A DNA stretch of 64,000 nt from a bacterium (GTDB lineage: Bacteria > Sysuimicrobiota > Sysuimicrobiia > Sysuimicrobiales > Segetimicrobiaceae): contig DATGFS010000042.1 of NCBI GenBank assembly GCA_035308905.1, positions 67,093 to 131,092 of the forward strand, read 5' to 3'. This document shows, one piece after another, positions 44,644-63,253 of this stretch (positions are counted from its first letter, which is position 1; the number at the start of each line of letters is the position of its first letter). Both the position numbers and the translations under genes were made by a program. The notes under the pieces are model-generated. The model ran no database searches, was not told where the DNA came from, and saw only the letters and a list, made by a program, of their open reading frames with translations.

Positions 44644-44668
44644 GCCGCTCCCCCCTGATGCACCCCGC

Positions 44669-45832: not shown

Positions 45833-45833
45833 C

Positions 45834-47111
45834 CTAGCTCAGGGCGTGCGAGACTTTGCGGATCGCCCGCACGATGTCGGCCTCGTCGCGCTCGGTCATG
45901 AGCGGGTGCAGGTCGATGTGGATCGCGCGCCGGAGGAGATCGTCGCTCCGCGGGAACATGCCCTTTTCGAGCCGCGCGCGGCCGCGGTAGTGGGGGCACT
46001 CCCACGAACAGTGCCGCTCCGAGAACATGCGGCGTTCGATGATCTGGTCGAAGTGATAGTAGACGTGCTGGCCGCTGTCCCAGGCCACGGTGTTGCGGAT
46101 GCCCTCGGCGTTGAGGGCGGCGCTGAAGGCGCGGGTGTGCTCACCGGTCGGCAGGAAGAACATCAGCGTGGCGCCGGTGTCGCCGTCCGGGTCCGGCAGC
46201 GGCCGCGGCGTGAGGCCGGGCACGCCGGTCAGCCCGTCGAGGATCGTCCGCTTGTGCGCCCGCATGCGCTCGATGATGCCCTCCATCCGCCCGAGCTGCA
46301 CGAGGCCGATCGCGCCGGTGATCTCGCTCATCCGGAAGTTGAGGCCGATCATCAGCGGGTTGGCGCCGGGCAGCGTTTCGTCGAGCTCCTGCATGCGCGC
46401 CGACCCCTGGTCGTGGAAGCGCACCGCGCGGTCGTAGAGCGCGGCGTTCTGGGTCACCACCACGCCGCCCTCGCCCGTGGTGATCACCTTGTGGTACTGC
46501 ATGCTGAAGGCGCCGAGATCGCCAAACGTGCCGAGCCGCCTGCCCCGATACCGCCCGCCGACCGCCTGCGCCGTGTCCTCGACGATGCGGAGCCGGTGCC
46601 GCCGGGCGGTCTCGAGGATCGGCGCCATGTCGGCGCCGGCCCCGCGCATGTGCACCGGGAGAATCGCCTTGGTCGCGGGCGTGACCGCGGCTTCGAGCGC
46701 GCGCGGGTCCATGTTCAGGCTCTCGTCGATGTCGACGAACACGGGCACCGCGCCGAGGATCACAACGGCGTTGATCGTGGCGATCCACGTGTAGGTCGGG
46801 ACGATGACCTCGTCGCCCGGCCCCACACCGAGGGCCGCGAGCGCCGTGATGAGCGCGGCCGTGCCCGACGTCACCCCGACCGCGTGGCGCGCGTCCATCG
46901 CGCGCGCGAACGCGTGCTCGAACTCCACGACCTTCCCGAGCGGCTTCGGACCGTAGTGGCGGAAGAGGCTCTGGCTGTCGAGCACCTCCATCACCGCGGC
47001 CTTTTCCTCCGCGCCGATCAGCAGGCCTCCGGGATAGCCGGGCAGGAGCGGTTCGGTGCGAACCGGGGTTCCGCCGTCGACTGCCAGCCGCTCGCCGGTG
47101 GTTCTGCTCAT
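45834..47111 (-). CDS. DegT/DnrJ/EryC1/StrS-family PLP aminotransferase
   Basis: The product is 425 aa. Fold type I landmarks are GVTSGTAALITALAALGVGPGDEVIVP (about 79-105), the cofactor Asp in VEDTAQAVGG (Asp179) and the PLP lysine at residue 208 in FSMQYHKVITTGEGG. Related enzymes aminate keto sugars and keto-inositols such as scyllo-inosose. Its stop lies close to the Gfo/Idh/MocA gene and its start overlaps the lacI gene by 4 bases, so it is the first enzyme of the LacI-controlled operon. Confidence 0.9.
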   Translation of the reverse strand: MSRTTGERLAVDGGTPVRTEPLLPGYPGGLLIGAEEKAAVMEVLDSQSLFRHYGPKPLGKVVEFEHAFARAMDARHAVGVTSGTAALITALAALGVGPGDEVIVPTYTWIATINAVVILGAVPVFVDIDESLNMDPRALEAAVTPATKAILPVHMRGAGADMAPILETARRHRLRIVEDTAQAVGGRYRGRRLGTFGDLGAFSMQYHKVITTGEGGVVVTQNAALYDRAVRFHDQGSARMQELDETLPGANPLMIGLNFRMSEITGAIGLVQLGRMEGIIERMRAHKRTILDGLTGVPGLTPRPLPDPDGDTGATLMFFLPTGEHTRAFSAALNAEGIRNTVAWDSGQHVYYHFDQIIERRMFSERHCSWECPHYRGRARLEKGMFPRSDDLLRRAIHIDLHPLMTERDEADIVRAIRKVSHALS

Positions 47112-48196
47112 GGTCTGCCTCCCGTGGTGCCTCGAATGATGAGCTCGTTTGCGACCGTGGTGATGGGCCGCGCCGCCCGGTCTCCCGCGACGAGGCCGAG
47201 GAGGATCCTGGCCGCCGTCGCCCCCATCACGTCCTTGCGTATTCGGACGGTCGTCAACGGCGGGTCGGTCGTCGCCGCGAGCTCGATGTCGTCCATGCCC
47301 ACGACCGAAAGGTCGTGCGGAATCCGGAGTCCCGCCGCGCCCGCGGCGCGCATGACGCCGAGCGCCTGCTTGTCGGTGACCGCGAAGATCGCGGACGGAC
47401 GGTCGGCCAGCGCCAGCAGCTCTCCGGAGCGGCGGAAGGCGGCGTCCGCGTCGACGGGGGTCACGGCCTCGAGGGCCGGATCGCGCTCGAGCCCGGCGTC
47501 CCGCAGCGCCGCGGCGTAGCCGCTCTGCGTCTCCCGGCCGAACGGATAATCGACCGCGGCGCCGACGAAGCCGATGCGCGTGTGGCCGAGGTCCACGAGG
47601 TGCCGGGTGGCCGCGTAGGCGCCGCCGGCGTTGTCGTTGACCACCGCGGGCGCGCCGACCCCCGGCACGAAGTTGTCGAGGATCACGACGGGGACGCCGG
47701 CCCCGAGGGCCACGCGCACCCAGCGGGCCTCAACGACGCCGGCGACGAGGATGCCGTCCACTTCGCGCGCCTGCGCCATCTCGACGAAGGGCGGGGCGGC
47801 GGAGGATGGGCGCAGCGGGGGCGCGATCAGCATCCGCACCCCGACCTCCTCGAACACGCTGCCCACCCCGGCGAGGACGGCGCGGTAGAAGAGATCCGAG
47901 AAGATGCCGGTCATGTTGAGCCCCGGCACGATCGCGACGGAGTTGGAGCGGCCCAGCTTGAGCCGGCGGGCCGCGGCGTTCGGCGTATACCGCAGCCGGC
48001 GCGCGGCCTCGCGCACGCGCTGGCGGGTCACGGTGCTGATCCGAGCGCGGCCGTTGAGGGCCTGGGAGGCGGTCGGCAGCGAGACGCCGGCCAGGCGGGC
48101 CACGTCGCGCAGGCTGCTCGCCGAACCGGACCGCCCGAGGACCCGGGGCCGTCGGGCCGGAGAAGCCTTGCTCTTGCGCGTCGCCACGCGGGCCAC
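47108..48196 (-). CDS. LacI-family transcriptional regulator
   Basis: The product is 362 aa (GTG start). The N-terminal helix-turn-helix SLRDVARLAGVSLPTASQALNG followed by RVREAARRLRYTPNAAARRL and the hinge is the LacI DNA-binding unit, here after a basic 27-residue extension. The rest is a periplasmic-binding-protein-like sensor with IGFVGAAVDYPFG and a closing VVGMDDIELAATTDPPLTTVR. It probably binds the 18-bp palindrome at 48261, which overlaps its own promoter, and a near-copy at 59050. The inducer is unknown but could be a sugar or polyol. Confidence 0.9.
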   Translation of the reverse strand: MARVATRKSKASPARRPRVLGRSGSASSLRDVARLAGVSLPTASQALNGRARISTVTRQRVREAARRLRYTPNAAARRLKLGRSNSVAIVPGLNMTGIFSDLFYRAVLAGVGSVFEEVGVRMLIAPPLRPSSAAPPFVEMAQAREVDGILVAGVVEARWVRVALGAGVPVVILDNFVPGVGAPAVVNDNAGGAYAATRHLVDLGHTRIGFVGAAVDYPFGRETQSGYAAALRDAGLERDPALEAVTPVDADAAFRRSGELLALADRPSAIFAVTDKQALGVMRAAGAAGLRIPHDLSVVGMDDIELAATTDPPLTTVRIRKDVMGATAARILLGLVAGDRAARPITTVANELIIRGTTGGRP

Positions 48197-48426: not shown

Positions 48427-49872
48427 TTGCCAGCACGGCCTCTGGGTTCGGGACAGGTGGTCGAGGCGGCCCGGGATCTCCCGGTCGCGCACGAGACCGA
48501 TGTCCTCGTTGTCGGCGGCGGCATCGCCGGCGTCATGGCGGCCCTCGCCGCCGGCCGGACCGGCGCGCGGACGCTCCTCGTCGAGCGTTTCGGCTCCCTC
48601 GGCGGTACCGGCACCGCGGCGATGATGAACCTGTTCTACGTGCCGTACGCCGCGTCGCGGGGTCTCGTCCGCGAGCTGTTCGACCGGCTCATCGCCCGGG
48701 ACGGCGCGATCCCCGGCGAGTTCGTCGTCTACGACCCCGAGCTCTACAAGGTCACAGCTTTGGAGATGCTGGCGGAAGCGGGCGTCCGCGTGCTGCTGCA
48801 CACGTTCGTCAGCGACGTCGTGATGGACGGTCGCGATCTGCGGGGCATCGTCGCCGAGAACAAGTCCGGGCGCCAGGCGATCCTGAGCCGCATCACCGTG
48901 GACGCGAGCGGCGACGCGGACATCGCCGCGCGCGCCGGCGCGCCGTACATCAAGGGGCGCGAGCGGGACGGCAAGATGCGGCCGATGACGCTCATCTTCC
49001 GGATGGGCGGCGTGGACGTCCCGCGGCTCGTGGACTACGTGCGCACGCACCCCGAGGACTTTTCGCCCGATCCGCTCCAGTGCATGCTCGATCTCGAGCA
49101 TCAGATGATCCGCGTCTTCGGCTTCTTCAAGCTCGTCGAGGAGGCGAAGGCGCGCGGCGAGCTGTGGCCGGACTGCTACTACTTCCGCGTCGAGTCGGTC
49201 CTGCCGGACCGCGGCGTCCTCACCGTCAACGCGACGCGCGTCTACGGCGTGGACGGGACCAACGCCGAGGACCTGTCCCGCGCGGAGATCGAGACGCGGC
49301 ACCAGATGATCCAGCTCGCGAACTGGGCGCGCGCGCGCGTGCCGGGCTTCGAGCGTTCGTTCATCCTCGACTCCGCGAACACGATCGGCGTCCGCGAGAC
49401 GCGCCGCATCCGGGGCGAGTACCTCATGACCGAGGAGGACATCCTCGCCGGGCGGCACTACGACGACGTCGTCGGGGTCGACGCGAACCAGCAGAACCCG
49501 CGCCAGCAGGGCGGGCACCCGCCGGACGGGCAGGAAGGCGGGCCGCAGGACGTGGAGGCGCGGGAGCTCGTGGCCCGGATGTTCGTCTACGAGATTCCGT
49601 ACGGGTGCCTCCTGCCGCGGGAGGTGGACGGCCTGCTCGTCGCCGGCCGCTGCATCTCCGTCGACCACCACGCCGACGTGTACACGCGCAACCAGGGAAC
49701 GGCGATGGCGACCGGCGTCGCCGCGGGCGTCGCCGGTGCGCTCGCCGCCCGCGCCGGCGTGCCGCCGCGGGCGGCCGACGTCCGCGCGGTGCAGCGCGAG
49801 CTGACCCGTCTCGGCGTCGATCTCGAGCTGCTGCGGCGCCTCGGCCCGTCGCCGGCGTCGCTCGAGGTCTGA
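48427..49872 (+). CDS. FAD-dependent oxidoreductase (FAD_oxidored family), first of a pair
   Basis: The product is about 481 aa; the first available start is TTG 48427. The dinucleotide-binding motif VLVVGGGIAGVMAALAAG (about residues 26-43) ends in the ribose-binding Glu of LLVERFG. The family's repeated features follow: VDASGDADIAARAG (about 158-171), LTVNATRVYGVDGTN, IGVRETRRIRGEYLMTEED and a late GLLVAGRCISVDHHADVY flavin-contact block. A Gln/Gly-rich insert sits near 350. Members oxidise or reduce poorly known substrates and are often found in sugar-acid or aromatic pathways. It is divergent from lacI and probably controlled by it. Confidence 0.85.
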   Translation: MPARPLGSGQVVEAARDLPVAHETDVLVVGGGIAGVMAALAAGRTGARTLLVERFGSLGGTGTAAMMNLFYVPYAASRGLVRELFDRLIARDGAIPGEFVVYDPELYKVTALEMLAEAGVRVLLHTFVSDVVMDGRDLRGIVAENKSGRQAILSRITVDASGDADIAARAGAPYIKGRERDGKMRPMTLIFRMGGVDVPRLVDYVRTHPEDFSPDPLQCMLDLEHQMIRVFGFFKLVEEAKARGELWPDCYYFRVESVLPDRGVLTVNATRVYGVDGTNAEDLSRAEIETRHQMIQLANWARARVPGFERSFILDSANTIGVRETRRIRGEYLMTEEDILAGRHYDDVVGVDANQQNPRQQGGHPPDGQEGGPQDVEARELVARMFVYEIPYGCLLPREVDGLLVAGRCISVDHHADVYTRNQGTAMATGVAAGVAGALAARAGVPPRAADVRAVQRELTRLGVDLELLRRLGPSPASLEV

Positions 49873-49880
49873 GGCCCGCG

Positions 49881-51290
49881 ATGCGCGTGCGGCCGGAAGT
49901 GGACGTGCTCGTCTGCGGCGGCGGGACGGCCGGCGCCGTCGCCGCGATCGCCTCCGCGCGGACCGGCGCGCGGACCGTCCTCGTCGAACAGTACGGCAGC
50001 GTCGGCGGGATGGCCTCGACCGGGATGTCGTTCCTCGGCGTGAGCGACGCCTCGGGCCGCCGCGCGCTCGGCGGAATCGGGGCGGAGCTCCTGGCGCGCC
50101 TCGCGGACGCGGGCGCCGCGTTCGAGGACCGCCCCGACAAGCAGGTCGGCTCCGTCACCGTCGCGGATCCGGTCGCGCTTCAGCAGACGCTGTTGGAGAT
50201 GCTGCTCGACGCCGGCGTGGAGTTTCTGCTCCACACGTTCTGCGTCGACGCGGTGACCGAGGGCCCGCGCGTGCGCGGGATCCTCGCGGCCAACAAGGGC
50301 GGTCTCGAGACCGTCCTCGCGCAGGTGGTCGTCGACGCGACCGGAGACGCCGACGTCGCCGCCCGCGCGGGGGGGCGGTTCGTCGTCGGCCGGGCCGACG
50401 ACGGGTTGACGCAGCCCGTGACCCGGATCTTCCGGGTCTGCGACGTGGACGTCGAGGAGATGCTGGCGTACTTGAAAGCGAACCCCGGCGAGATGGACCT
50501 GCCGGAGCGCTGGGACGGCGGAGCGGGGTACACCGCCCAGGATCTCGCCGCGCAGTCGATCGTGATGGACGCCTATCCCTCGCTCGTGGCCGCGGCCCGG
50601 CGGGCCGGCGAGCTGTCCGTGCCGCGGGACCGCATCGGCGTCGAGACGGGGCCCGTGCCGGGCGTTGTGACGATCAACGCGACCCGTGTCCACGGCGTCG
50701 ACGCGACCGATCCGGACGCGTTGAGCCGCGCGGAGATCGAGACGCAGCGCCAGATGTTCGAAATCTTGAAATTCCTCCGGCGGCGCGTGCCCGGGTTCCG
50801 CAAGGCCCGGCTGCTCGACTCCGCCTACCAGGTCGGTGTCCGCGAGTCGCGGCACGTCGCCGGCGACTACGTCCTCACCCTCGACGAGGTGCTGTCGGGC
50901 GCGGATTTTCCCGATACGGTCGCCCGCGGCGCGTACCCGCTCGATCTGCACGATCTTCGTCCGGGCGCCCAGGTGCTCGGCGCCCGGGTCGGCGGCGGCG
51001 GCGTGACGCTGCGGCGCATCGAGTACTCCTACGGGATTCCGCTGCGGTGCCTGCTCCCGGTGGGCCTCGACGGCCTCGTGGTGGCCGGCCGGGCGATCTC
51101 CGCGACGCACGAGGCCGCGGGCTCGGTTCGGGGCCAGGGTGTCTGCATGGCGACCGGGCACGCCGCGGGGACGATCGCCGCGATGAGCGCCGCCGCGGGG
51201 ACGGCGCCGCGCGGGCTCACGGCGCCCGCCGTCCAGAAGACCTTGCGCGCACAGCACGCCGTCCTGGACGCCGCGGTCCCGGCCTCATGA
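49881..51290 (+). CDS. FAD-dependent oxidoreductase, second of a pair
   Basis: The product is 469 aa from ATG 49881, eight bases after the first gene. It is a paralogue of its neighbour: VLVCGGGTAGAVAAIASARTG, LLVEQYGSVGG-like ribose contact, VDATGDADVAARAGG, VTINATRVHGVDATD, VGVRESRHVAGDYVLTLDE and GLVVAGRAISATHEAAG. It is closer to the 59169 protein in the first motif (both read GGGTAG and IASARSG/TG). Two tandem copies suggest a heterodimer or two consecutive steps. Cytoplasmic; no signal peptide. Confidence 0.85.
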   Translation: MRVRPEVDVLVCGGGTAGAVAAIASARTGARTVLVEQYGSVGGMASTGMSFLGVSDASGRRALGGIGAELLARLADAGAAFEDRPDKQVGSVTVADPVALQQTLLEMLLDAGVEFLLHTFCVDAVTEGPRVRGILAANKGGLETVLAQVVVDATGDADVAARAGGRFVVGRADDGLTQPVTRIFRVCDVDVEEMLAYLKANPGEMDLPERWDGGAGYTAQDLAAQSIVMDAYPSLVAAARRAGELSVPRDRIGVETGPVPGVVTINATRVHGVDATDPDALSRAEIETQRQMFEILKFLRRRVPGFRKARLLDSAYQVGVRESRHVAGDYVLTLDEVLSGADFPDTVARGAYPLDLHDLRPGAQVLGARVGGGGVTLRRIEYSYGIPLRCLLPVGLDGLVVAGRAISATHEAAGSVRGQGVCMATGHAAGTIAAMSAAAGTAPRGLTAPAVQKTLRAQHAVLDAAVPAS

Positions 51291-51438
51291 CCGGGCCGGG
51301 CCGCGCCAAGGGAGGCACGTCGAGGTGGGAAGGGAGGGACACCGCCGCGCGGAGCTGTTGATCGCGTACGCCGCACCACGGCGGGGCCGGATCGGTACGC
51401 CGGCCCGCCTAGATCATCAGGGGGAGGGGATCACGCGT

Positions 51439-52833
51439 ATGTTGCGTCAGCCACGATACCGGGTCGCCGCGACCGTGTTTGCGATGTTGCTCGTAGCGGT
51501 GCTCGTCACGGGCTCGCTGCCCCAGACGTCGCGCGCTCAGAGCATGACCACGCTTACGTTCCTGGGGCCCGACTTCGACGAGTGGGTCGCGTTCGTCAAG
51601 GTGGCGAACGAGATCGGCAAGCCGATGGGTATCCAGATCAAGCCGGAGTACCTGCCTTGGGACAACGTCTTCCAGAAGGCGCTGATCGACTACAAGTCCG
51701 GCGTGAAGACGTGGGACTATGTCTACGTCTACAACACTTGGATCCCCGGGCTCGCCGCGGCCAAAGCGGTCATCCCGATTGACGACCTGATGACGACGCC
51801 CGCGGCGAAAAAGGCGGTGGCGCCGGAGGACTTCATCAGCCTGACCACAGTCGGCCTCCAGTTCCAGAACAAGCTGTGGGCGATGCCGATGCTGGCCGCC
51901 CCGTACATGATGGGGTACCGGACCGACCTGTTCGCCGATCCGACCGAGAAGAAAGCGTTTCAGGCCAAGTACGGCTACCCGCTCGCCGTTCCGCAGACCT
52001 ATAAGCAGCTGATGGACGTGGCGCAGTTCTTCACGCGCAAGGCCGGCGCGACGCTGATGGGCAAGCCGCTCGACCAGGACTTCTACGGCGTCGTCATGGC
52101 GAACAAGAGCGGCGGCTTCCTGTTCCACCGGTACGAGCACATCCTCGTCGCGTTCGGCGGGGACCTGATCTACGACCCCAAGACCATGCAGCCGACGGTG
52201 AACTCGCCGCAGAGCATCGCCGCGGCCAAGTACTACGTCGCCCTGCACAAGTACATGGAGCCCGGGAGCGAGTCGCTGACCGGCGGCGGCGCCGAGCGCA
52301 TCATGGCGTCCGGCCGCGGCGCGATCGCGATGGACGCCCTCGACAACATGCTGTCGGTGCTGCCGGTGGCGAAGCTCTCCAAGATCGTCGGCAAGGTCAG
52401 CTACACCCTGCTGCCGACGCAGGTCGCGAGCCGGCCCCACGCCAACGTCGGCGACGCGAACGGCCTCGCGATCTACGCGCTGACCCAGCACAAGGCCGAG
52501 GCGTTCAAGCTGGCCACGGCCGTGCTGAACACGCAGGGGACCAAGCAGGTGATGAAGGAGTACCCTGCGCTGATTCCCATGCGCTCGTCGGTGATCAAGG
52601 ATCCGGAGGTGCGCACGAACTATCCGAACGTGTTCAACGCGATGAGCAGCTTCATCAACGGCAAGCCGTACACGACGTTCATCCCGCCGCTCAAGGAGTG
52701 GGTCCAGGCCCAGGATATCTACGAGCAGGCGCTGTCGGCCGCGATGTCGGGCCAGCAGTCCGTGGAGGACGCGCTCAGCGGCGCCCAGGCCAAGGTGGTA
52801 GACTTCTTCAAGCGGCAGGGCTACGTTAAGTAA
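51439..52833 (+). CDS. ABC transporter substrate-binding protein, sugar type (family 1)
   Basis: The product is 464 aa from ATG 51439 (SD GGGGGAGGGG). A signal peptide ends near SRAQS. The mature protein shows the extracellular sugar-binding layout: TLTFLGPDFDEW, WDYVYVYNTWIPGLAAA, IPIDDLM, LWAMPMLAAPYMMGYRTDLF (about residues 150-170), NKSGG, and a C-terminal QQSVEDALSGAQAKVVDFFKRQG typical of family-1 SBPs. The two permease genes follow after a stable hairpin. No ATPase follows; the UgpC-like ATPases at 34102 or 41334 could serve. Confidence 0.9.
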   Translation: MLRQPRYRVAATVFAMLLVAVLVTGSLPQTSRAQSMTTLTFLGPDFDEWVAFVKVANEIGKPMGIQIKPEYLPWDNVFQKALIDYKSGVKTWDYVYVYNTWIPGLAAAKAVIPIDDLMTTPAAKKAVAPEDFISLTTVGLQFQNKLWAMPMLAAPYMMGYRTDLFADPTEKKAFQAKYGYPLAVPQTYKQLMDVAQFFTRKAGATLMGKPLDQDFYGVVMANKSGGFLFHRYEHILVAFGGDLIYDPKTMQPTVNSPQSIAAAKYYVALHKYMEPGSESLTGGGAERIMASGRGAIAMDALDNMLSVLPVAKLSKIVGKVSYTLLPTQVASRPHANVGDANGLAIYALTQHKAEAFKLATAVLNTQGTKQVMKEYPALIPMRSSVIKDPEVRTNYPNVFNAMSSFINGKPYTTFIPPLKEWVQAQDIYEQALSAAMSGQQSVEDALSGAQAKVVDFFKRQGYVK

Positions 52834-52850
52834 CCGCCTAATGCGGCGCC

Positions 52851-52890
52851 GGAGGGCCGCCGTCCGCCTCACGGCGGGCGGCGGCCTTCC
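52851..52890 (+). other. Intercistronic stem-loop between SBP and permease genes
   Basis: An 18-bp stem (52851-52868 with 52873-52890, two G-U pairs) closes a TCAC loop and has no T-run after it. Such hairpins after SBP genes commonly protect the SBP mRNA or reduce read-through, giving more binding protein than permease. Starts 18 bases after the SBP stop. Confidence 0.65.
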
Positions 52891-52914
52891 GACCGGCGTC
52901 TTTCGGAGCGCGCG

Positions 52915-53814
52915 ATGGGAATGAAGTGGGCGGTCCTCGGCAGCGGGCGGTTCTATTTCTGGTTGATGACGGTGCCCGCCGTGCTCTACGTGGTCGTGTG
53001 GCGGCTGGCCCCCGCGGTCTACACGTTGTGGCTCGGCCTGCACACGTACAACATCGTGTACGACAACGCGCCGCGCTGGAACCATCTGGCGAACTTCGTC
53101 CAGATCGCGCGCGACGGCGCGCTCCGCCAGTCGCTGGGACTCTCCGCGAAATTCGGCCTCATCGCCACGGCCGCCGAGGTGCTGATCGGACTCGCCGCGG
53201 CGATGTTCTTCGACACCGACCCGCCGGGACGGAACCTGCTGCTCGGCGTCTTCCTGCTGCCGATGATCATGGCGCCCGTCGTGGTCGGCACGGCCTGGGG
53301 CACGTTGTTCGACCGGACGGTCGGCTACATCCCCTACGTCCTGCACCTGCTGCACGTCCCGCAGCCGGATTGGATGGCGACGCCGGGGACGGCGATGTTC
53401 GCCCTGCTGGTCGCGGACGCGTGGGAGTGGACGCCGCTTGTGACGCTCCTGCTGTTCGCGTCGCTGCAGGCCATCCCGCGCGAGCACTTCGAGGCCGCGC
53501 GCGTGGACGGCGCCTCGGGATGGCAGCTGTTCCGCCGGATCATCCTCCCGCAGGTCACGGGCATGGTGCTCGTCGCCGCCGGCCTTCGCCTCATGGACGC
53601 GTTTCTCGAACTCGACAAGGTGTTCGTCATGACCGGCGGCGGCCCGGGCTCGTCGACACAGTTCGTGAGCATGTTCGTGTACAAGCAGGCGTTCCAGTTC
53701 TACGAGCTGGGATACGCGTCGGCCGTGATCACGGTGCTCCTGGCCGTCCTCGGCGCCGCCTACTGGCTCTATCTGCGCAGCTACTACCGGGCCCTCGGGG
53801 CGGCGAACCTGTAA
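52915..53814 (+). CDS. Sugar-type ABC transporter permease (MalF/UgpA-like)
   Basis: The product is 299 aa. Six hydrophobic helices are visible. The coupling loop reads IPREHFEAARVDGASGWQLFRRIILPQVTGMV (about residues 182-213), the EAA form of MalF-type sugar permeases. The DLMDAFLELDKVFVMTGGGPGSSTQ-like region (LRLMDAF...TGGGPG) near 230 is diagnostic for this group. The stop overlaps the next start (TAATG). Confidence 0.9.
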   Translation: MGMKWAVLGSGRFYFWLMTVPAVLYVVVWRLAPAVYTLWLGLHTYNIVYDNAPRWNHLANFVQIARDGALRQSLGLSAKFGLIATAAEVLIGLAAAMFFDTDPPGRNLLLGVFLLPMIMAPVVVGTAWGTLFDRTVGYIPYVLHLLHVPQPDWMATPGTAMFALLVADAWEWTPLVTLLLFASLQAIPREHFEAARVDGASGWQLFRRIILPQVTGMVLVAAGLRLMDAFLELDKVFVMTGGGPGSSTQFVSMFVYKQAFQFYELGYASAVITVLLAVLGAAYWLYLRSYYRALGAANL

Positions 53815-54725
53815 TGGACGCGCGCGAGCTGGCCCCGCGCGAAGGCGAAGCGGACGTGCTGCTCCGGCCGGCGGCCCGCGCGCGTGCGCGCGTCCGCGAC
53901 CGCTCGGCGGCCGCCGCCCGCCGCGCCCGCTGGCAGATCGCGGGCATCATCGCGCTGCTGGCCTGGACGCTGCCGCCGTTTCTCTACCTCGTCATGCTGT
54001 CCATCAAGCCCGAGCGGATTCTGATCGACCGGTCGGCGCTGTTCTTCGTCCCGACGTTCGAACGGTACACCGACTTTGTCGCGAGCGGCCTGGCGGGGCC
54101 GATTTGGACGAGTCTGATCACGTCCACGCTGGGCGCCCTCGGCACCGTCGTGCTGGCCGGCCTCGCGGCAATGACGTTTCGGTTCCTGGATTTCAAGGCC
54201 AAGACGGTGCTCTTTCTGCTGATCCTGCTGCCGCGGATGTTCCCGCCCGTGACGACGCTGATTCCCATTCAGCTGACGCTGAAGGCGATGGGCCTCATCG
54301 ATACCAAGACCGCGCTCGTCATCCTGTTCATCGGGTTCGAGATCCCGCTGGCGATGTGGGTGCTGCACACCTTCCTCGCGGACGTGCCGCGGGAGCTCGC
54401 CGAAAGCGCGGCGCTGGACGGCGCTTCGCTCCCGGCGATCGTGCTGAAGATCCTGTTGCCGCTGGCCGGCCCCGGACTGCTCGCCGCCTTCATCCTCGCC
54501 TTCATCTTCAACTGGAACGAATTTCTATTTCCCTTGATCGTGACGAGCTTCAACGCGCGCACCGGCTCCGTGGCGATCATGAGCTTCACCGCCGGCTACA
54601 AGAAGCTGCAGTGGGGCGCGCTGGCCACGCTCGGCGTGATCATGACGATCCCCGTGGTGCTGTTCGTGCTGGCGTTCCGGCAGTCGCTGGTCCGCGGCTT
54701 CACCGCGGGCGCGCTCAAAGGCTGA
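53814..54725 (+). CDS. Sugar-type ABC transporter permease (MalG/UgpE-like)
   Basis: The product is 303 aa. It has a long, Arg-rich cytoplasmic tail (about 40 residues), then six helices. Motifs are RFLDFKAKT, LPRMFPPVTTLIP, the EAA loop PRELAESAALDGASLPAIVLKILLPLAGPG (about residues 195-224) and FNWNEFLFPLIVT, all typical of MalG-type proteins. It partners the preceding permease. The next gene, a peptide-type SBP, follows after 25 bases, so both importers may be one transcript. Confidence 0.9.
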   Translation: MDARELAPREGEADVLLRPAARARARVRDRSAAAARRARWQIAGIIALLAWTLPPFLYLVMLSIKPERILIDRSALFFVPTFERYTDFVASGLAGPIWTSLITSTLGALGTVVLAGLAAMTFRFLDFKAKTVLFLLILLPRMFPPVTTLIPIQLTLKAMGLIDTKTALVILFIGFEIPLAMWVLHTFLADVPRELAESAALDGASLPAIVLKILLPLAGPGLLAAFILAFIFNWNEFLFPLIVTSFNARTGSVAIMSFTAGYKKLQWGALATLGVIMTIPVVLFVLAFRQSLVRGFTAGALKG

Positions 54726-54750: not shown

Positions 54751-56331
54751 ATGGCGAACGGAGGCACACGCACCGAAGCCGATCCGCGCGGCCTGACCCG
54801 GCGGCGGCTGCTCGCGCTCACCGCGGGGGCCGCGGCGGGCGCGGCGCTGCCGGCCGGCGGCCTGTTCGACCGCCGCGTGCTGGCGGCCGCGGAGAAGCGC
54901 GGCGGAACCCTGACCGTCGGCGTGAACACCGATCTCGTGTCGCTCGATCCCAACGACATCGTGTTCGCCAACGTGCCGATGTTCTTCCAGGTCTACAACT
55001 ACTTGGTCAAGTACACCACGACGCTGCAGGCCCGTCCGGACCTCGCCGAGTTCTGGGACGCGGCGAAGGACGGCATGAGCGTCGTGTTCCGCCTCCGCGA
55101 CGGGGTGCGGACGCATTCCGGCGGCACCTTCGGCGCCGACGCGCTGATCGCCAATTTCCGCCGCACCAAAGACAAGGCCACCGGCGGGGGACTGTTCAGC
55201 CGCCTCGGCGACTGGGAAGCCGCCGACCGGCTCGACGCGAGAACGGTGCGGTTCCGGTTCGCCCATCCGCATCCCGACTACCTGGCCCAGATCGCCCGGT
55301 GGGGCATGGTGGACCCGGCGTCGTTCGCGACCGTGCGGAACAAGGGCGGCGGGACCGGACCCTTCCGCGTGCAGGAGTGGGTGCCGGGCGACCACGTCAC
55401 CTTCGCCCGCTTCGACGGCTACTGGCAGCAGGGGCTGCCGCTGCTCGACCGCGTGGTCTGCCGCGTGTTTTCGGATCCGCAGGCGCTCGAGAACGCCTTC
55501 CAGGCCGGGACGGTCGACGTCGCGCACACGATCGTCAACAAGGACGTCGCGCGCCTCAGGCAGGCCGGGTTCCAGATCGCGCCCGCGCCGGTGCCGAACG
55601 AGTACTACGTGCTCGTCATCAACACGCGCAAGCCGCCGCTCGACAACATCAAGGTCCGTCAGGCGATCCAGCTCCTGGTGGACCGCGCTACGGTGGTGCG
55701 CACGGTGCTCGGCGGCGTCGGCCGGCCGGTCGCGCAGATGGTGACGCCCGCCTCGCCGGGCTACGATCCGAAGCTGGACGCCGAGTACGGGTACAATCCG
55801 GCGAAGGCGAAGCAGATCCTCGCGTCCGCGGGCATCGGCCGCGGCGTGCGGCTGAACTTCCTCACGTCTACGAGCACCCCGGAGCTGCCGCAGATCGCGC
55901 AGATCATCCAGGCGGATCTCCGGCAGGCCGGCCTCGACGCGAACATCACGATCCACGAGCCGGCCCAGTACTTTCCGCCCTACTTCGCCGGCAACTTCGA
56001 TCTCAGCCTCTCGTTCCTCACGCTGGCGACCATCGATCCGACGGACTTCACCATCAGTTCGGCGTTCCGCACGGACGGGACGAACCCGGCGTGGATCCAG
56101 ACCGGGCCGCCGCGCGAATACGTCGACGGCCTGCTCGGCCTCAACACGACCTTCGACATGCGGGAGCGGTGGACGCGGCTGCGCGCGGTGATCCGCTACA
56201 TCCTGGATCAGGCGTGGGCCGTGCCGGTGGCGCTGCGGCTCCCCACCTACGGCCTCGCGAAGCCGGTGGCCGGGTTCGACGTCGATCCGCAGATGCTGAT
56301 CCAGCTGAAGGGGACCTGGCTGAACCGCTAG
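54751..56331 (+). CDS. ABC transporter substrate-binding protein, family 5, Tat-exported
   Basis: The product is 526 aa. A twin-arginine signal (LTRRRLLALTAGAAAG, about residues 16-31) precedes a mature protein with TVGVNTDLVSLDPNDIVF, FRLRDGVRTHSGGTF near residue 115 and RQAIQLLVDRATV near 310. It is the fourth peptide-type SBP in the window. It begins an operon with a creatininase-family amidohydrolase placed between it and the two permease genes, an arrangement that hints at an amide- or lactam-containing ligand. Confidence 0.85.
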   Translation: MANGGTRTEADPRGLTRRRLLALTAGAAAGAALPAGGLFDRRVLAAAEKRGGTLTVGVNTDLVSLDPNDIVFANVPMFFQVYNYLVKYTTTLQARPDLAEFWDAAKDGMSVVFRLRDGVRTHSGGTFGADALIANFRRTKDKATGGGLFSRLGDWEAADRLDARTVRFRFAHPHPDYLAQIARWGMVDPASFATVRNKGGGTGPFRVQEWVPGDHVTFARFDGYWQQGLPLLDRVVCRVFSDPQALENAFQAGTVDVAHTIVNKDVARLRQAGFQIAPAPVPNEYYVLVINTRKPPLDNIKVRQAIQLLVDRATVVRTVLGGVGRPVAQMVTPASPGYDPKLDAEYGYNPAKAKQILASAGIGRGVRLNFLTSTSTPELPQIAQIIQADLRQAGLDANITIHEPAQYFPPYFAGNFDLSLSFLTLATIDPTDFTISSAFRTDGTNPAWIQTGPPREYVDGLLGLNTTFDMRERWTRLRAVIRYILDQAWAVPVALRLPTYGLAKPVAGFDVDPQMLIQLKGTWLNR

Positions 56332-57175: not shown

Positions 57176-58135
57176 ATGGCGGCCGGCGGGCTGGGACGCT
57201 ACCTGGCGCGGCGGGGCATCGAGGCCGCGTTCACCCTGTTTCTCGCGTCCGTGCTGGTCTTTGCCATGGTGGCCGCGCTGCCGGGGGATCCGGCGCAGGT
57301 CATTCTCGGGGACCGCGGCACCCCCGACCAGCTGCGCGCCCTGCGGGCGTATCTCGGCCTGGACCGGCCGCTCCCGCTGCAGTACGGGGGGTGGATCGTC
57401 CGGATCGCGCACGGCGATCTCGGGCATTCGCTCATCAACGGCGCGCCGGTGGCCGGGCTCGTCGGGCGCGCCCTGCCGCTGACGCTGCAGCTCTCGCTGT
57501 GGGCGTTCGCCGTGGTCGTGCTGATCGCGTTTCCCGCGGGCATGTTCGCGGCCACGCGGCCGCGGTCGCCGCTCGCGGCCGCGCTGCGCTGGTACCACGG
57601 ATGGGCCCTGGCCGTGCCGGTGTTCTGGCTCGGGGCGATCCTGTCGTGGTACTTCGGCGTAGTCCTGAAATGGCTGCCGCCCTCGGGGTTCGTCGGCCTC
57701 GCGGAGAGCCCGTCCGGGTGGGCGCGCAGCCTCGTGCTGCCGGGCGTCACGCTCGGCCTCGGCGTCGGCTCGGTGATGGCGCGCTTCGTGGAGGCGTCGC
57801 TCGGCGACGTGCTGTCGAACGACTACGTGCGCACGGCGCGCGCGAAGGGCCTGCCGGGACGTGCGGTGGTGTGGCGGCACGCGCTCGGCAACGCGCTCAT
57901 TCCGATCGTCACCGTGCTCGGCATCCAGGCCGGGTTCTTCATCGGCGGGGCCGTGATCACGGAGGCCGTGTTTGCGATTCCGGGGCTCGGCAGCATGCTG
58001 TGGCGCTCGATCCTGACGCGCGACTATCTGGTGACGCAGTCGGTGATCCTCGTCGGCATCGCGGCGTTCGTCGTGATCAATCTCTGCACTGACGCGCTCT
58101 ACGGCCTGCTCGATCCGCGGGTGCGGTATCAATGA
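57176..58135 (+). CDS. Peptide-type ABC transporter permease (DppB-like)
   Basis: The product is 319 aa. Features are an N-terminal RYLARRGIEAAFTLF helix, YLGLDRPLPLQYGGWI, a DYVRTARAKGL coupling loop with RHALGNALIPIVT (about residues 215-245), and CTDALYGLLDPRVRYQ at the end. About six membrane helices. It begins 10 bases after the creatininase-family gene and pairs with the DppC-like protein encoded next. Confidence 0.9.
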   Translation: MAAGGLGRYLARRGIEAAFTLFLASVLVFAMVAALPGDPAQVILGDRGTPDQLRALRAYLGLDRPLPLQYGGWIVRIAHGDLGHSLINGAPVAGLVGRALPLTLQLSLWAFAVVVLIAFPAGMFAATRPRSPLAAALRWYHGWALAVPVFWLGAILSWYFGVVLKWLPPSGFVGLAESPSGWARSLVLPGVTLGLGVGSVMARFVEASLGDVLSNDYVRTARAKGLPGRAVVWRHALGNALIPIVTVLGIQAGFFIGGAVITEAVFAIPGLGSMLWRSILTRDYLVTQSVILVGIAAFVVINLCTDALYGLLDPRVRYQ

Positions 58136-58160
58136 CGGGCGCCGCGTTCCCGGCGCGCCG

Positions 58161-59027
58161 ATGACGGTGTCGGCGAGGGCGCTCGCGGGCAATCACGCCC
58201 CTCTCCGCGCCCGGGCGGCGCGGCGCGCGCGGGTCCCGGACGCGGGCGCCGTCTTCCTGATCGCGATCGCGGCCGCGGCCGCCGCCGCTCCGCTCCTCGC
58301 GCGGTACGGGCCGACGGACATGAGCAAAGAGACAGTGCTCGCGCTGCCGTCGTGGAGCCACCTCGCGGGCACGGACCAGTTCGGGCGGGACATCCTCAGC
58401 CGTCTCTTGTACGGCGCCCGGATCGCGCTCGCGATCGGCGTCGGGTCGACCGCGGTCGCCGCGGTGTGCGGGGTGCCGCTCGGCCTCTGGACGGGCTTCA
58501 AAGGCGGCGCCGTGGACGCCGCCGCGATGCGGACCGTGGATACGCTCCTCGCGATCCCCCCGGTGCTGCTCGCGATGGCGCTCGTGGCCGCGGTGGGGCC
58601 GGGGTCGGTGAACGCCGGCGTGGCGATCGCGATCGTCGGCCTGCCGCAGTTCGCGCGGATCGCCCGGGCCGGCGTGCTGACGCACCGCGAGATGGAGTAC
58701 GTGGAGGCGTCGGTCGCCGCGGGCGCGCGCGACGCCCGGATCGTCTTTCGCACCATCCTACCGAACGTGCTCTCGCCGGTGCTGGTCCAGATCCCCATCG
58801 GCGTGTCCCGCGCCATCCTGCTCGAGGCGAGCCTGAGCTTTCTCGGCCTCGGGACCCAGCCGCCGCAGCCCTCCTGGGGACTGATGATCAGCGAGAGCCG
58901 CGAGTACATGTACGCCGCGCCGTGGTACGGCATCTTCCCGGGCCTCCTGATCGCGTTGACCGTGCTCGCGTTGAACCACGCGGCGGACCGGGTACGGGCC
59001 CGCTGGAGCCCTGATCGGGCGCGCTAA
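58161..59027 (+). CDS. Peptide-type ABC transporter permease (DppC-like)
   Basis: The product is 288 aa. It has a 35-residue cytoplasmic tail, a first helix rich in Ala, then LAGTDQFGRDILSRLLYG (about residues 69-86), the coupling loop SVAAGARDARIV with RTILPNV, and ASLSFLGLGTQPPQPSWG. It completes the 54751-59027 importer; again no ATPase gene follows. The next feature downstream is the operator-promoter of the grd-like operon. Confidence 0.9.
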   Translation: MTVSARALAGNHAPLRARAARRARVPDAGAVFLIAIAAAAAAAPLLARYGPTDMSKETVLALPSWSHLAGTDQFGRDILSRLLYGARIALAIGVGSTAVAAVCGVPLGLWTGFKGGAVDAAAMRTVDTLLAIPPVLLAMALVAAVGPGSVNAGVAIAIVGLPQFARIARAGVLTHREMEYVEASVAAGARDARIVFRTILPNVLSPVLVQIPIGVSRAILLEASLSFLGLGTQPPQPSWGLMISESREYMYAAPWYGIFPGLLIALTVLALNHAADRVRARWSPDRAR

Positions 59028-59067: not shown

Positions 59068-59091
59068 ACCGGCGCCGCCGTGTCCCATAAT
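59062..59091 (+). promoter_or_regulatory. Promoter of the FAD/grd-like operon
   Basis: TTGACT (59062-59067) and CATAAT (59086-59091) are separated by 18 bases. Transcription would start near 59098, giving a leader of about 70 bases. The -35 box is inside the operator, the classic geometry for repression. Confidence 0.65.
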
Positions 59092-59168
59092 TGCGGCGAT
59101 GCGGCGCGGCGGGGCGCTCGGGCCGCCGGGCCCGCGTCCGGACTGCCGTGCCTGCGGGGGGACGCCGG

Positions 59169-60563
59169 ATGAGATTCTTTGGGCATGCCGACGTGATCGT
59201 CGTCGGGGGCGGGACCGCCGGCATCGTCGCGGCGATCGCCAGCGCGCGAAGCGGCGCGCCGACGCTGCTCGTGGAGCAGTCGAGCGGTCTCGGCGGGACG
59301 AGTACCAGGGGTCTCATGAACTGCTTCGTGACCTTTCACGACGCCGGAGGCCGCCAGGCCGTTCGCGGCATCGCCCAGGAGATCGTGGACCGGCTGGTCC
59401 GGGCGGGCGGCTCGGCCGGGCACACCGCGGATACGATGGGTGAATGCGTGACGCGCGTCCTCTTCGACCCGTTCGTGCTCGGCAACGTGCTGTTCGAGAT
59501 GGCGGGGGAGGCGGGCGTCGAGCTGCTGCTGCACAGCAGCGTCGTCGACGTGCTGATGGACGGCGACCGGCTGAAGGGGCTGGTGCTGCACAACAAGGGC
59601 GGGCTGCAAGTTGCGACGTGCGGTGTGTGCATCGACGCGAGCGGCGACGGGGACGTGGCGGCGGCCGCCGGCGCGCCGTTCGAGAAGGCGGCGCGCGGAG
59701 AGCTGCAGCCGATCACGCTGATGTACCGCCTCGGCGGCGTGGACATCGACCGGTGGGCCGATTTCGTCCGCGGGCGGCCGCGGGAGTTCGAGATGACGCG
59801 CGTGCCCGACGATCCGCGCGCGGAAGGGCTCGGGATCATGAGCCTGACGTATTTTCAGCCGTTCCGGGACGCGGTGCGGGCCGGGGAGCTGCCCCGCGGA
59901 ATCTCCGGCGAGCAGGTGTGGCTCTTGTGCGGACGCGAGGAGGCGCGGCAGGGCGTCGTGACGGTCAACGGCACGCGGGTGGAAGGCCTCGACGGGACGA
60001 ACCCGCGCGAGCTGACCCGCGCCGAGGCGGACGCCCGGCGCCAGGCCGCCGGGCTCAGCGCGTGGCTCCGCGGCCGCATGCCGGGGTTCGAGCAGTGCTA
60101 CATCTACCAGACCGCGCAGCAGCTCGGCGTGCGCGAGACCCGGCGCATCGTCGGCGACTACATGCTGACTGAAGACGACGTCTTGTCGGCGCGGGCGTTC
60201 GAGGACGCGATCGCGAAAGGATCCACCCCCATCGACATCCACGGCGGCGCCGACGCCGGCGGCGAGAACTACTGGATCAAGACCACCGACTTGGGCATTA
60301 TGGCGTACGATATCCCGTACCGGTGCCTCGTGCCGCGCAACGTGGAGCAGCTGCTCGTCGCGGGCCGGTGCATCTCGACCACCCATAAGGCCCACGGCGC
60401 GACGCGCATGCAGCCGGTGTGCATGGCGACCGGGCAGGCCGCCGGCACCGCGGCGGCGCTCGCCGCCGCGCGCGCGGTGCCGCCGCGCGCGATCGACGTC
60501 CGCCACCTGCAGGACGCGTTGATCCAGGCCGGCCAGGTGATTCGCGAAGACCAAATGGTGTGA
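59169..60563 (+). CDS. FAD-dependent oxidoreductase of the FAD_oxidored family, in the grd-like operon
   Basis: The product is 464 aa from ATG 59169 (GGGGGG about 9 bases upstream). The dinucleotide site is VIVVGGGTAGIVAAIASARSG (about residues 9-29 with LLVEQ after it). Later blocks are IDASGDGDVAAAAG, VTVNGTRVEGLDGTN, LGVRETRRIVGDYMLTEDD and LLVAGRCISTTHKAHGATRMQP. It is the third paralogue of this family in the window. It is encoded ten bases before the grdB-like gene under a promoter carrying a LacI operator, so it could pass electrons to or from the reductase or prepare its substrate. Confidence 0.85.
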   Translation: MRFFGHADVIVVGGGTAGIVAAIASARSGAPTLLVEQSSGLGGTSTRGLMNCFVTFHDAGGRQAVRGIAQEIVDRLVRAGGSAGHTADTMGECVTRVLFDPFVLGNVLFEMAGEAGVELLLHSSVVDVLMDGDRLKGLVLHNKGGLQVATCGVCIDASGDGDVAAAAGAPFEKAARGELQPITLMYRLGGVDIDRWADFVRGRPREFEMTRVPDDPRAEGLGIMSLTYFQPFRDAVRAGELPRGISGEQVWLLCGREEARQGVVTVNGTRVEGLDGTNPRELTRAEADARRQAAGLSAWLRGRMPGFEQCYIYQTAQQLGVRETRRIVGDYMLTEDDVLSARAFEDAIAKGSTPIDIHGGADAGGENYWIKTTDLGIMAYDIPYRCLVPRNVEQLLVAGRCISTTHKAHGATRMQPVCMATGQAAGTAAALAAARAVPPRAIDVRHLQDALIQAGQVIREDQMV

Positions 60564-60572
60564 GGCGATAGG

Positions 60573-61907
60573 ATGGACGCTCACGGGTTGCGGGTGGTTC
60601 ATTACATCAACCAGTTCTTCGCGGGGATCGGCGGCGAAGAGCGCGCCGACACGCCGCCGGCCGTCAAGGACGGCCCGGTCGGTCCCGGACGGGCGATCCA
60701 GGCCGCCCTCGGTTCGCACGGCGCCGTGGCCTCGAGTATGGTCTGCGGCGACAGCTACTTCAACGAGCGGATCGACGCGGCCGGCGAGGCGGTGCGCGCG
60801 TGGCTCGGCGCGCAGCGGCCCGACGTGGTGATCGCGGGCCCGGCGTTCGCCGCGGGCCGGTATGGGCGCGCCTGCGTCGAGGTGTGCCGCATCGCCGCGG
60901 ATCTCGGGATTCCCGCCGTCACCGGCATGCACCCCGAGAATCCCGGGCTGTTGATGTACCGGGAGGCGTACGTCGTGCCGACCGCCGGCAACGCGGCGGG
61001 CATGGCCGCGGCGCTCGGCGCGATCGTGCCGCTCGCCCGCAAGCTCGGCGCGGGGCTCCCGGTCGGACCGGCGGAGGACGAGGGCTACCTGCCGCGCGGC
61101 ATCCGGCGGCCCGGAGCGCGGGCGCTGCCCGGGGCGCGGCGGGCCGTCGATATGCTCGTCGCCAAGCTCGGCGGGACGCCGTTTCGCACCGAGCTCCCGG
61201 TCGAAGGCTACGAAGCCGTGGCGCCCGCGCCGCCCGTCGCGGACATGCCCCACGCGACGATCGCGGTGGTGACGACCGGCGCGATCGTGCCGAAGGGCAA
61301 TCCGGACCACCTCAAGCGGTGCAGCGAGACGCGGTGGCAGCGCTACGAGCTGGAGGGGCGGACGCGCCTCGAGCCGGACGAGTTCGAGTGCGTCCACGGC
61401 GGCTTCTACAACGTCCCGGCGTCGGAGAACCCGAACGTCGTGCTGCCGCTGGACGCGCTGCGGGAGCTCGAGCGCCGCGGCCTCTTCGCGCGGCTCGCCG
61501 ACTTCTACTGCACCACGACCGGCAACGACCAGCGGTTCGCGGACTGCGTGCGCAACGGCAAGGAGATCGCGGAGCTGCTCTGGCAGGAGCGGATCGACGG
61601 CGTGCTGCTCGTCGCGACCTGAGGGTCGTGCAATCGTTGCGGCGCAACGATCAGCAAAGAGATCGAGCGGCGGCGGATCCCGGTGGCCGTGATCAGCGCG
61701 CTGCCGCCGCTGGCGATGCAGGCCGGCGCGAACCGCGTCGTGCAGGGGGTCAAGATCGAGCACGTCTGCGGGGACCCGGCGCTGCCGGCGGAGGAGGACG
61801 GGGAGGTGCGCCGGCGCCTCGTGGAGCGCGGGCTGCGGGCGCTCGGGACCGCGGTGGAGCGTCCCACGCTCTTCGAAGGGGACGGCACGATGGTGACGGC
61901 GCGGTGA
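60573..61907 (+). CDS. grdB: GrdB-like selenoprotein (glycine/sarcosine/betaine reductase component B), in-frame UGA at 61620-61622
   Basis: The product is 444 aa if the TGA at 61620-61622 is read as selenocysteine; without it the protein would end at 349. Start ATG has GAGG eight bases upstream. GrdB features run across the UGA: VHYINQFFAGIGGEERAD, IAGPAFAAGRYG, VTGMHPENPG, GYLPRGIRR, IVPKGNPDH, then VLLVATUGSCNRCGATISKEIER, matching my memory of the TSTUGTCTRCG Sec site. U350 with Cys353 and Cys356 forms the redox centre that attacks the C-N bond of the substrate. The frame continues to 61907 with normal family sequence. It overlaps grdE by 4 bases. Component B specificity (glycine, sarcosine, betaine or another amine) is not decided here. 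Confidence 0.9.
61629..61656 (+). promoter_or_regulatory. Bacterial SECIS-like hairpin of grdB
   Basis: ATCGTTGC (61633-61640) pairs perfectly with GCAACGAT (61644-61651) around loop GGC. TGC (61629-61631) pairs with GCA (61654-61656) across an internal A/CA loop. The loop starts 18 bases after the UGA, as expected for a SelB-recognised element inside the coding sequence. Confidence 0.8.
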
Positions 61908-63253
61908 CGGCGTCGATGAACCTGACCGTGGGGACGTTTCCCGTCCGCGAGGTGGCCTTCGGCGCGCCGGCGGGATGGCGGGACGGGCGCCTCGTCGTCG
62001 ACGCGGACCGCGTCGCGGCGCTCGTGCGCGAGGACCGCCGCATCCGGCGCGTCGCGGTGGATCTCGTTCAGCCGGGAGAGGCGGCGCGGATCGTGCAGGT
62101 GCGCGACGTGATCGAGCCGCGGGTCAAGGTGGAGGGGCCCGGCCACACCTACCCCGGCATCTGCGGCCACGCACCGGACACCGTGGGCGACGGCGTCACG
62201 CACCGCTACGCCGGCCTCGGCGTGCTGATCGCGTCCGAGGCGCTGCCCCACATCCGGCGCACGGTCAGCGCGGCCACCGACAGCCTGATCGACATGTCCG
62301 GGCCCGGCGCCGTCACCGTGTACAGCACGCTGCGCTACGTCGCCCTGACCATCGAGACGCTGCCGGACCTCGATCTCACCTCGTGGAACGACGCGCTGCG
62401 CGGGGCCGCCCACCGCGTCGCGGCCGACCTCGCGGAGCTCGTGCGCGCCCAGACGCCGCCGGAACGGCGCGCGTACCTCCTGGCGCCGCCCGCCGCGGGA
62501 CGCCCGCGGGTCGTGCACGTGCACACGCTCAACGCCTCGATGGTCCCGGGGATCGGCACCGGCATCTATGGGTACACGCAGCACGCCCTGCCGGTGCTGC
62601 TGCACCCGAACGAGATCCTCGACGGGGCGATCGCCGGCGACGCCGTCGTCACCTATCCCGGGAAGTGCACCTGGCTGCACGTGAACAACCCGGCGCTCGG
62701 CGCGCTGTACGAGCGCGACGGGACGGATCTCGCCTGGCTCGGCTCGATCATCTCGCGCACGCGGTGGGGCGGGCTCGACGAGAAGCGCCTCAGCGCGTAC
62801 CAGACCGCCAAACTGGCCGCGATGCTCGGCGCCGACGGCGCGCTCGTCACCTGGAACCACGGCGGCAACGATCTCCTCGAAGTGATGATGACGATTCAAA
62901 GCCTCGAGCGCGCGGGCATCAAGACGACGTTCCTCACGATCGAGTCGGACATCAAGGTGGTGCGGATGACGCCGGCGCTCGCGGAGACCGGCACCTCGGA
63001 ACCGCCGCTCTTGTTCAGCGTGCCGGAGGCCGACGCGATCGTCAGTACCGGGACCCTCGCCCCCGCCGACCCGCTGCCGGCGATGCCGCGGGTGATCGGC
63101 GGGCGGGACGTCGTGTTCGATCAGGAGCGCCCCGACGTCCGCACCCCCGCGGCCGGGCCGCTGGATCTCGAGGCGGTGTCGGGCGCATACTCGCCGATCT
63201 TCGGGCACTTCGACAACTACGGTCTGGGGCGCCAGAGCTACCTTGACTACTGA
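61904..63253 (+). CDS. grdE: GrdE-like reductase component B alpha/beta subunit, processing cysteine not conserved
   Basis: The product is about 449 aa from GTG 61904 (4-base overlap with grdB); ATG 61916 is possible. GrdE landmarks: VRDVIEPRVKVEGPG (about residues 67-80), DTVGDGVTHRYAG, LIDMSGPGA, LHPNEILDGAI, HVNNPALGALYERDG and TTFLTIESD. In classical GrdE the precursor is cut before a Cys in a GNCVSAC segment to make a pyruvoyl group. Here the aligned segment reads GDAVVT (Asp246-Ala247) and the nearest Cys is 255, eight residues away. Either the subunit is not processed, or cleavage occurs elsewhere. This comparison is from memory. Confidence 0.85.
   Translation: MTASMNLTVGTFPVREVAFGAPAGWRDGRLVVDADRVAALVREDRRIRRVAVDLVQPGEAARIVQVRDVIEPRVKVEGPGHTYPGICGHAPDTVGDGVTHRYAGLGVLIASEALPHIRRTVSAATDSLIDMSGPGAVTVYSTLRYVALTIETLPDLDLTSWNDALRGAAHRVAADLAELVRAQTPPERRAYLLAPPAAGRPRVVHVHTLNASMVPGIGTGIYGYTQHALPVLLHPNEILDGAIAGDAVVTYPGKCTWLHVNNPALGALYERDGTDLAWLGSIISRTRWGGLDEKRLSAYQTAKLAAMLGADGALVTWNHGGNDLLEVMMTIQSLERAGIKTTFLTIESDIKVVRMTPALAETGTSEPPLLFSVPEADAIVSTGTLAPADPLPAMPRVIGGRDVVFDQERPDVRTPAAGPLDLEAVSGAYSPIFGHFDNYGLGRQSYLDY

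Follow-up and report, generated by a model that had tools for sequence, protein, structure and literature searches.

What does a selenocysteine (Sec)-dependent reductase do when its GrdE-like subunit lacks the known site of pyruvoyl formation? Glycine reductase, described as dependent on pyruvoyl and selenium in anaerobes that ferment amino acids, is the reference system, and both the location of its substrate-binding carbonyl and the role of the GrdE pyruvoyl are still debated (PMC9908766, PMC10298544). In Clostridioides difficile GrdE, the Asn-Cys bond is cut and the pyruvoyl was located at residue 242 by mass spectrometry (PMC9908766). The window studied here, a 64,000-nucleotide stretch of DNA from an uncultured bacterium, encodes at 61904–63253 on the plus strand a GrdE-like subunit (PF09338) of 449 residues with Asp246-Ala247 where the processed Asn-Cys sits. 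A sequence-only reading had described this substitution and had proposed a reductase that lacks the pyruvoyl and could act on tertiary or quaternary amines by another route, or on a different compound class. Its premise that GrdE is cleaved at Asn-Cys to yield a pyruvoyl agrees with the mass spectrometry, but the premise of a Schiff base between this pyruvoyl and the substrate is unsettled (PMC9908766, citing Andreesen 2004).

The reading frame is intact, running from a GTG start at 61904 to a stop codon at 63251–63253, with an alternative ATG start at 61916. The GTG overlaps the stop codon of the upstream grdB (TGA, 61905–61907), as in translational coupling. PF09338 (Gly_reductase) is the sole Pfam match of the protein (E = 2.7e-76, 257 bits, cut-off 22), and its closest named relatives in a scan of one genome per species are MAGs labelled Terrabacteria group bacterium ANGP1. 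A predicted model is confident (pLDDT 88.9, pTM 0.91); a sequence search of solved structures found no relative (best E 0.03, an unrelated regulator), and Foldseek with the predicted model found no significant fold match (best E 0.026, TM 0.16).

To locate the processing site, we aligned the protein with canonical GrdE proteins of its own phylum (L011, L012). The loop reads SGNCVSACDKHTTYHHLNNP in the canonical proteins and AGDAVVTYPGKCTWLHVNNP in the window protein, and because the alignment is gap-free, the Asn-Cys of GrdE corresponds to Asp246-Ala247 within Gly245-Asp246-Ala247-Val-Val-Thr (GDAVVT, encoded by 62636–62653). Across the loop core, GNCVSACDK in same-phylum GrdE stands against GDAVVTYPG in the window protein, so that the second conserved GrdE cysteine falls at Tyr251. 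As a positive control, GrdE beside classical GrdB carried Gly-Asn-Cys in 28/28 distinct genes, which account for all 34 readable loops (34/34; six were read from two overlapping loci). Residue 246 is Asp in each of the 14 members of the window clade, which share 73–96% identity with the window protein, and residue 247 is Ala except for Met in three of them. The Asp-Ala pair at the processing site is neither chance nor a sequencing artefact, and the substitution described earlier was confirmed.

Neither Cys255 nor any other cysteine aligned with the processing position. Cys255 lies eight residues downstream of it; it is present in 13 of the 14 clade members, with Ile in L033, and is not common to other subclades. 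The gap-free alignment and the Ile in L033 rule it out as the processing residue. Cys87 is replaced by Ser in two members, and no column holds Cys in all 14. Thr250 alternates with Gly and Thr256 with Ser within the clade, and a Ser- or Thr-derived pyruvoyl within the loop is ruled out by the lack of an invariant Ser or Thr. These comparisons support the conclusion that the window subunit cannot generate a pyruvoyl from Cys at the known position.

The partner gene encodes a GrdB-like selenoprotein (PF07355; 60573–61907, plus strand; 444 residues) whose frame is broken by one TGA at 61620–61622, read as Sec350 in the motif VAT-U-GSCNRCG, and which retains UxxCxxC. Among the 79 nearest loci, every GrdB match spanning the Sec site has TGA there. 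After the UGA, a SECIS-like hairpin lies at 61633–61651 on the plus strand (stem ATCGTTGC / GCAACGAT, loop GGC); its eight base pairs are perfect, and taken alone it barely exceeds shuffles (z −1.5). Across 94 distinct relatives, the stem columns are 93% paired versus 80% in column shuffles (0/500 as high), counts inflated in part by shared ancestry and coding constraint, and sliding the stem partner gives at most 57%. The loop is GGN in 94/94, and the stem covaries through two-sided changes (T-A to A-T, C-G to T-A, G-C to T-A), which argue for a genuine SECIS. The genome also encodes tRNA-Sec (68.7 bits) and SelB (311.8 bits), within 4 kb of each other on contig 33.

The serine of the GrdB STUG motif has been put forward as a possible source of formylglycine, that is, of the never-located carbonyl (PMC10838667). 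GrdB partners of Cys-bearing GrdE read ST-U in 20/20, whereas window-clade GrdB matches read AT-U in 16/16, so this serine is missing; across the wider radiation of relatives described below, both kinds occur (about 50 AT, 21 ST). With the Cys of the GrdE-like subunit and the Ser of GrdB both missing, the window clade is left without either candidate carbonyl source.

The remaining components are in place downstream. A GrdC-like component C beta subunit (NF040746) starts at 63243 on the plus strand and runs past the window end at 64000, with its stop near 64706 if counted on; when complete, it scores 506.6 bits (cut-off 450). The grdA gene follows outside the window (contig 42, 131795–132262), with an in-frame TGA in QCFV-U-TSAGAMDL. 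No hairpin in the 42 nt after this UGA was better than shuffles, and the case for Sec in GrdA is therefore homology plus conservation of the TGA. In L033 (17445–19798), about 6 kb separate GrdA and GrdC from grdB-grdE, and a thioredoxin-like gene stands between them. A single GrdD profile (NF040747) gave no match above its cut-off in any of the genomes tested from the radiation, the window genome included; it did so in G359 (579.6 bits), and G043 has a partial GrdD at a contig end. The weak matches in the window and radiation genomes (18–31 bits) resemble those in control genomes such as E. coli and are presumably PlsX. Two genomes of the same phylum with Cys-bearing GrdE (G008, G011) and one with a true betaine GrdH (G091) likewise show no GrdD that passes the cut-off; divergent GrdD may therefore escape the profile, or GrdD may be a separate trait. 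The absence of GrdD from the window genome is thus only suggestive.

We then asked how widespread the Cys-less form is. A search across 84,980 species, each represented by one genome, returned 506 relatives, of which the nearest 79 loci were kept; none of their readable loops holds Asn-Cys, in a sample that was picked by likeness to the window and does not give the overall frequency of Cys-less forms. In a quick tree of 141 proteins with an arbitrary root, the 20 Cys-bearing GrdE come together with the 13 GrdI in one supported group (99), in which GrdI is nested as a group of its own (100). The window clade (14 rows, support 100) sits among 102 Cys-less rows opposite the GrdE/GrdI side. Because the root is arbitrary, the tree is silent on whether Cys was lost or gained. 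The Cys-less rows span Chloroflexota including SAR202, Rokubacteria, Entotheonella and Myxococcota, and come also from Nitrospinota, Binatota, Actinomycetota and Acidobacteriota. Judged from these sequences, the novelty is one of scale: more than 100 Cys-less relatives in an apparent radiation apart from both GrdE and GrdI. We found no description of this branch in open-licence full text, and we know of no biochemistry for its members.

One Deltaproteobacteria/Myxococcota genome (G047; L096, L107–L135) has 27 GrdE-like and 20 GrdB-like matches, an unusually large expansion of one selenoenzyme family, and Asn-Cys is absent from all its loops that were read. In the window's own genome, contig 28 (L005 8972–16394, L007) carries a second grdB-C-A-E cluster with the GrdE-like loop GNHHIAADR, in which Asn is kept and Cys lost, followed by an ADP-forming acyl-CoA synthetase-like gene and another GrdE-like gene cut at the contig end. 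Contig 64 (L006 8470–10323, L010) carries a third GrdB with UGA (LPAT-U-GTGTRSG, UxxCxxC not kept), a partial GrdE-like gene at the contig end and a dipeptide-type ABC transporter nearby. In a related genome (L034 8671–12754 and L023), a near-identical cassette has grdB, grdE and grdC each split into at least two frames, as pseudogenes or assembly errors.

GrdE-like subunits without the pyruvoyl site are already known, because betaine GrdI loops read Gly-Ser-Phe or Gly-Ser-Tyr with no processing Asn-Cys in 13/13 (those beside GrdH genes above the curated betaine cut-off) and FarE of fluoroacetate reductase, like GrdI, is reported to be without both cysteines (PMC10838667). The earlier proposal of a pyruvoyl-less reductase therefore holds as far as a Cys-derived pyruvoyl at the known site would be impossible, but GrdI, FarE and the more than 100 relatives mean that such an enzyme would not be unusual. 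The companion proposal of another substrate route or class gains by analogy with GrdI (betaine) and FarE (fluoroacetate), in which a Cys-less subunit goes with substrates needing no Schiff base.

These precedents are themselves rival identities, and their fit must be weighed. Betaine cannot form a Schiff base and needs none, and GrdI shares with the window protein the missing Asn-Cys and a Sec-containing partner, which would suit a betaine-type (GrdI/GrdH) reductase from a different phylum whose substrate is glycine betaine or some other quaternary ammonium compound. However, the partner GrdB reaches 297.4 bits on betaine GrdH against a cut-off of 775, GDAVVTYPG is unlike the GrdI loop GSFMPCSSK, GrdI clusters with Cys-bearing GrdE (99) and the window clade elsewhere, and the nearby transporters are of carbohydrate and dipeptide type, so we regard this identity as unlikely. 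A tertiary or quaternary amine, as first suggested, is a possible substrate that nothing singles out. A FarE/FarB-like reductase splitting carbon-halogen bonds of fluoroacetate or other haloacids is a still poorer fit and very improbable: the GrdE-like FarE of Cloacibacillus is reported to be in the same state as the window protein, with no processing cysteines and no proprotein, but the window protein scores 76.2 bits on the FarE model (NF053623; cut-off 675), FarB reportedly has no CxxC whereas the window GrdB keeps UxxCxxC, and there is no radical SAM gene among the annotated neighbours. The best NCBIfam match, sarcosine reductase GrdG (NF040793, 177.8 bits), lies under its cut-off of 780, and the D-proline reductase proprotein PrdA, which is processed at Cys421 to give a pyruvoyl and works without GrdA and GrdC, is a distant homologue (TIGR04480, 20.4 bits versus 700). 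Betaine, sarcosine, fluoroacetate and proline reductase identities thus all fall far below curated cut-offs. With GrdE of C. difficile and C. sticklandii the window system has in common PF09338, a Sec-containing GrdB partner and GrdA and GrdC neighbours; it differs in Asp-Ala for Asn-Cys, in an identity of only ~34–36% to the phylum's own canonical GrdE and in the undetected GrdD.

Two further explanations concern the subunit rather than the substrate. Serine is the pyruvoyl source in other pyruvoyl enzymes, and the clade comes close to conserving Cys87 and Cys255, so some residue other than the usual Cys might still yield a pyruvoyl or another carbonyl; the lack of an invariant Cys column, the variation at Thr250 and Thr256 and the restriction of Cys255 to this subclade make this highly doubtful. 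That the protein is a degenerate, inactive GrdE paralogue has the slimmest chance of all: the processing residue is gone and a second copy in the related genome (L034) is broken into two frames, but orthologues in many genomes are intact and strongly conserved, with UGA, SECIS and operon partners kept. The intact orthologues rule out a pseudogene reading of the window gene.

Clues to the substrate come from the plus-strand genes upstream. A FAD_oxidored (PF12831) protein is encoded directly upstream of grdB (59091–60563), preceded by two permeases of a dipeptide/nickel-type ABC transporter (57176–59027; 57176–58135 and 58161–59027), a creatininase-family amidohydrolase (PF02633, 56342–57166) and a dipeptide/nickel-type solute-binding protein (54751–56331). 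Farther upstream lie a carbohydrate-type ABC transporter (51325–54725), with its binding protein at 51325–52833 (PF01547), a permease at 52915–53814 and a second permease ending at 54725, and two more FAD_oxidored (PF12831) proteins (48457–51245; 48457–49872 and 49881–51245). Homologues of the carbohydrate-type transporter directly precede grdB-grdE-grdC in L027, L029, L030 and L031, with grdA also present where the contig reaches, and in L029 and L031 the transporter is itself preceded by a FAD_oxidored homologue of 48457–49872. Relative to the L029/L031 layout, the window has the dipeptide-type transporter, the creatininase-family hydrolase and a further FAD_oxidored gene inserted; outside the window, this second ABC system together with the creatininase was found only in L034. 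In L028 and L032, Gfo/Idh oxidoreductase genes take the transporter's place; L028 also has DegT and LacI there, and enolase-superfamily genes farther off. On the minus strand, the window itself holds two Gfo/Idh oxidoreductases, a DegT-type aminotransferase and a LacI-type regulator (43660–48196), homologues of which lie directly upstream of grdB in L028. The conserved carbohydrate-type transporter and FAD oxidoreductase genes point, with low confidence, to a polar alpha-substituted acid, perhaps sugar-linked, as the substrate; the operon's ABC transporter probably brings it into the cell.

Taken together, we favor, with a probability of about 0.7, a reading in which the window protein is the non-selenoprotein subunit of protein B in a Sec-dependent reductase of the glycine/betaine/sarcosine superfamily, working as a carbonyl-free, unprocessed chain on substrates with a good leaving group on the alpha-carbon. 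In the chemistry proposed for this superfamily (Andreesen 2004, as cited in later papers), the GrdB selenolate displaces a leaving group on the alpha-carbon, GrdA takes over and reduces the carboxymethyl-type group, and component C releases the acyl. For the window enzyme we infer the cleavage state, chemistry, step order and product as follows. The GrdE-like protein would remain a single chain, with no proprotein stage and no pyruvoyl, and the selenolate of Sec350 in GrdB would attack, with no Schiff base, the alpha-carbon of a carboxylate whose leaving group is intrinsically good, giving a Se-carboxyalkyl selenoether. GrdA would then take the group over through its Sec and reduce it at the cost of a thiol donor, and GrdC would accept the acyl group; since GrdD was undetected, the group may end up on CoA or another thiol and not on phosphate. 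With no carbonyl to assist, the leaving group would have to be good in itself, as are trimethylamine in betaine and fluoride in fluoroacetate. This expected need is drawn from precedent, and a carbonyl could come from elsewhere via an unfamiliar route.

The shared loss of the pyruvoyl site implies that the window enzyme and its more than 100 relatives probably reduce compounds other than free glycine. More tentatively, and with the odds somewhat against it, uncultured bacteria of soil, groundwater and ocean may hold a large branch of Sec reductases that lack GrdD and have a carbonyl cofactor in neither subunit of protein B. Such enzymes would cleave the alpha C-X bond of carboxylates that are not free amino acids but perhaps sugar-linked, and would hand the acyl group on from GrdA via GrdC to a thiol, with no acetyl phosphate formed. 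Annotations of 'glycine/sarcosine/betaine reductase' in Chloroflexota, Rokubacteria and similar groups should not be taken as evidence of glycine reduction. More than 100 natural Sec-dependent relatives without the processing Cys, many also without the Ser beside Sec, would allow a direct test of whether these enzymes need a carbonyl.
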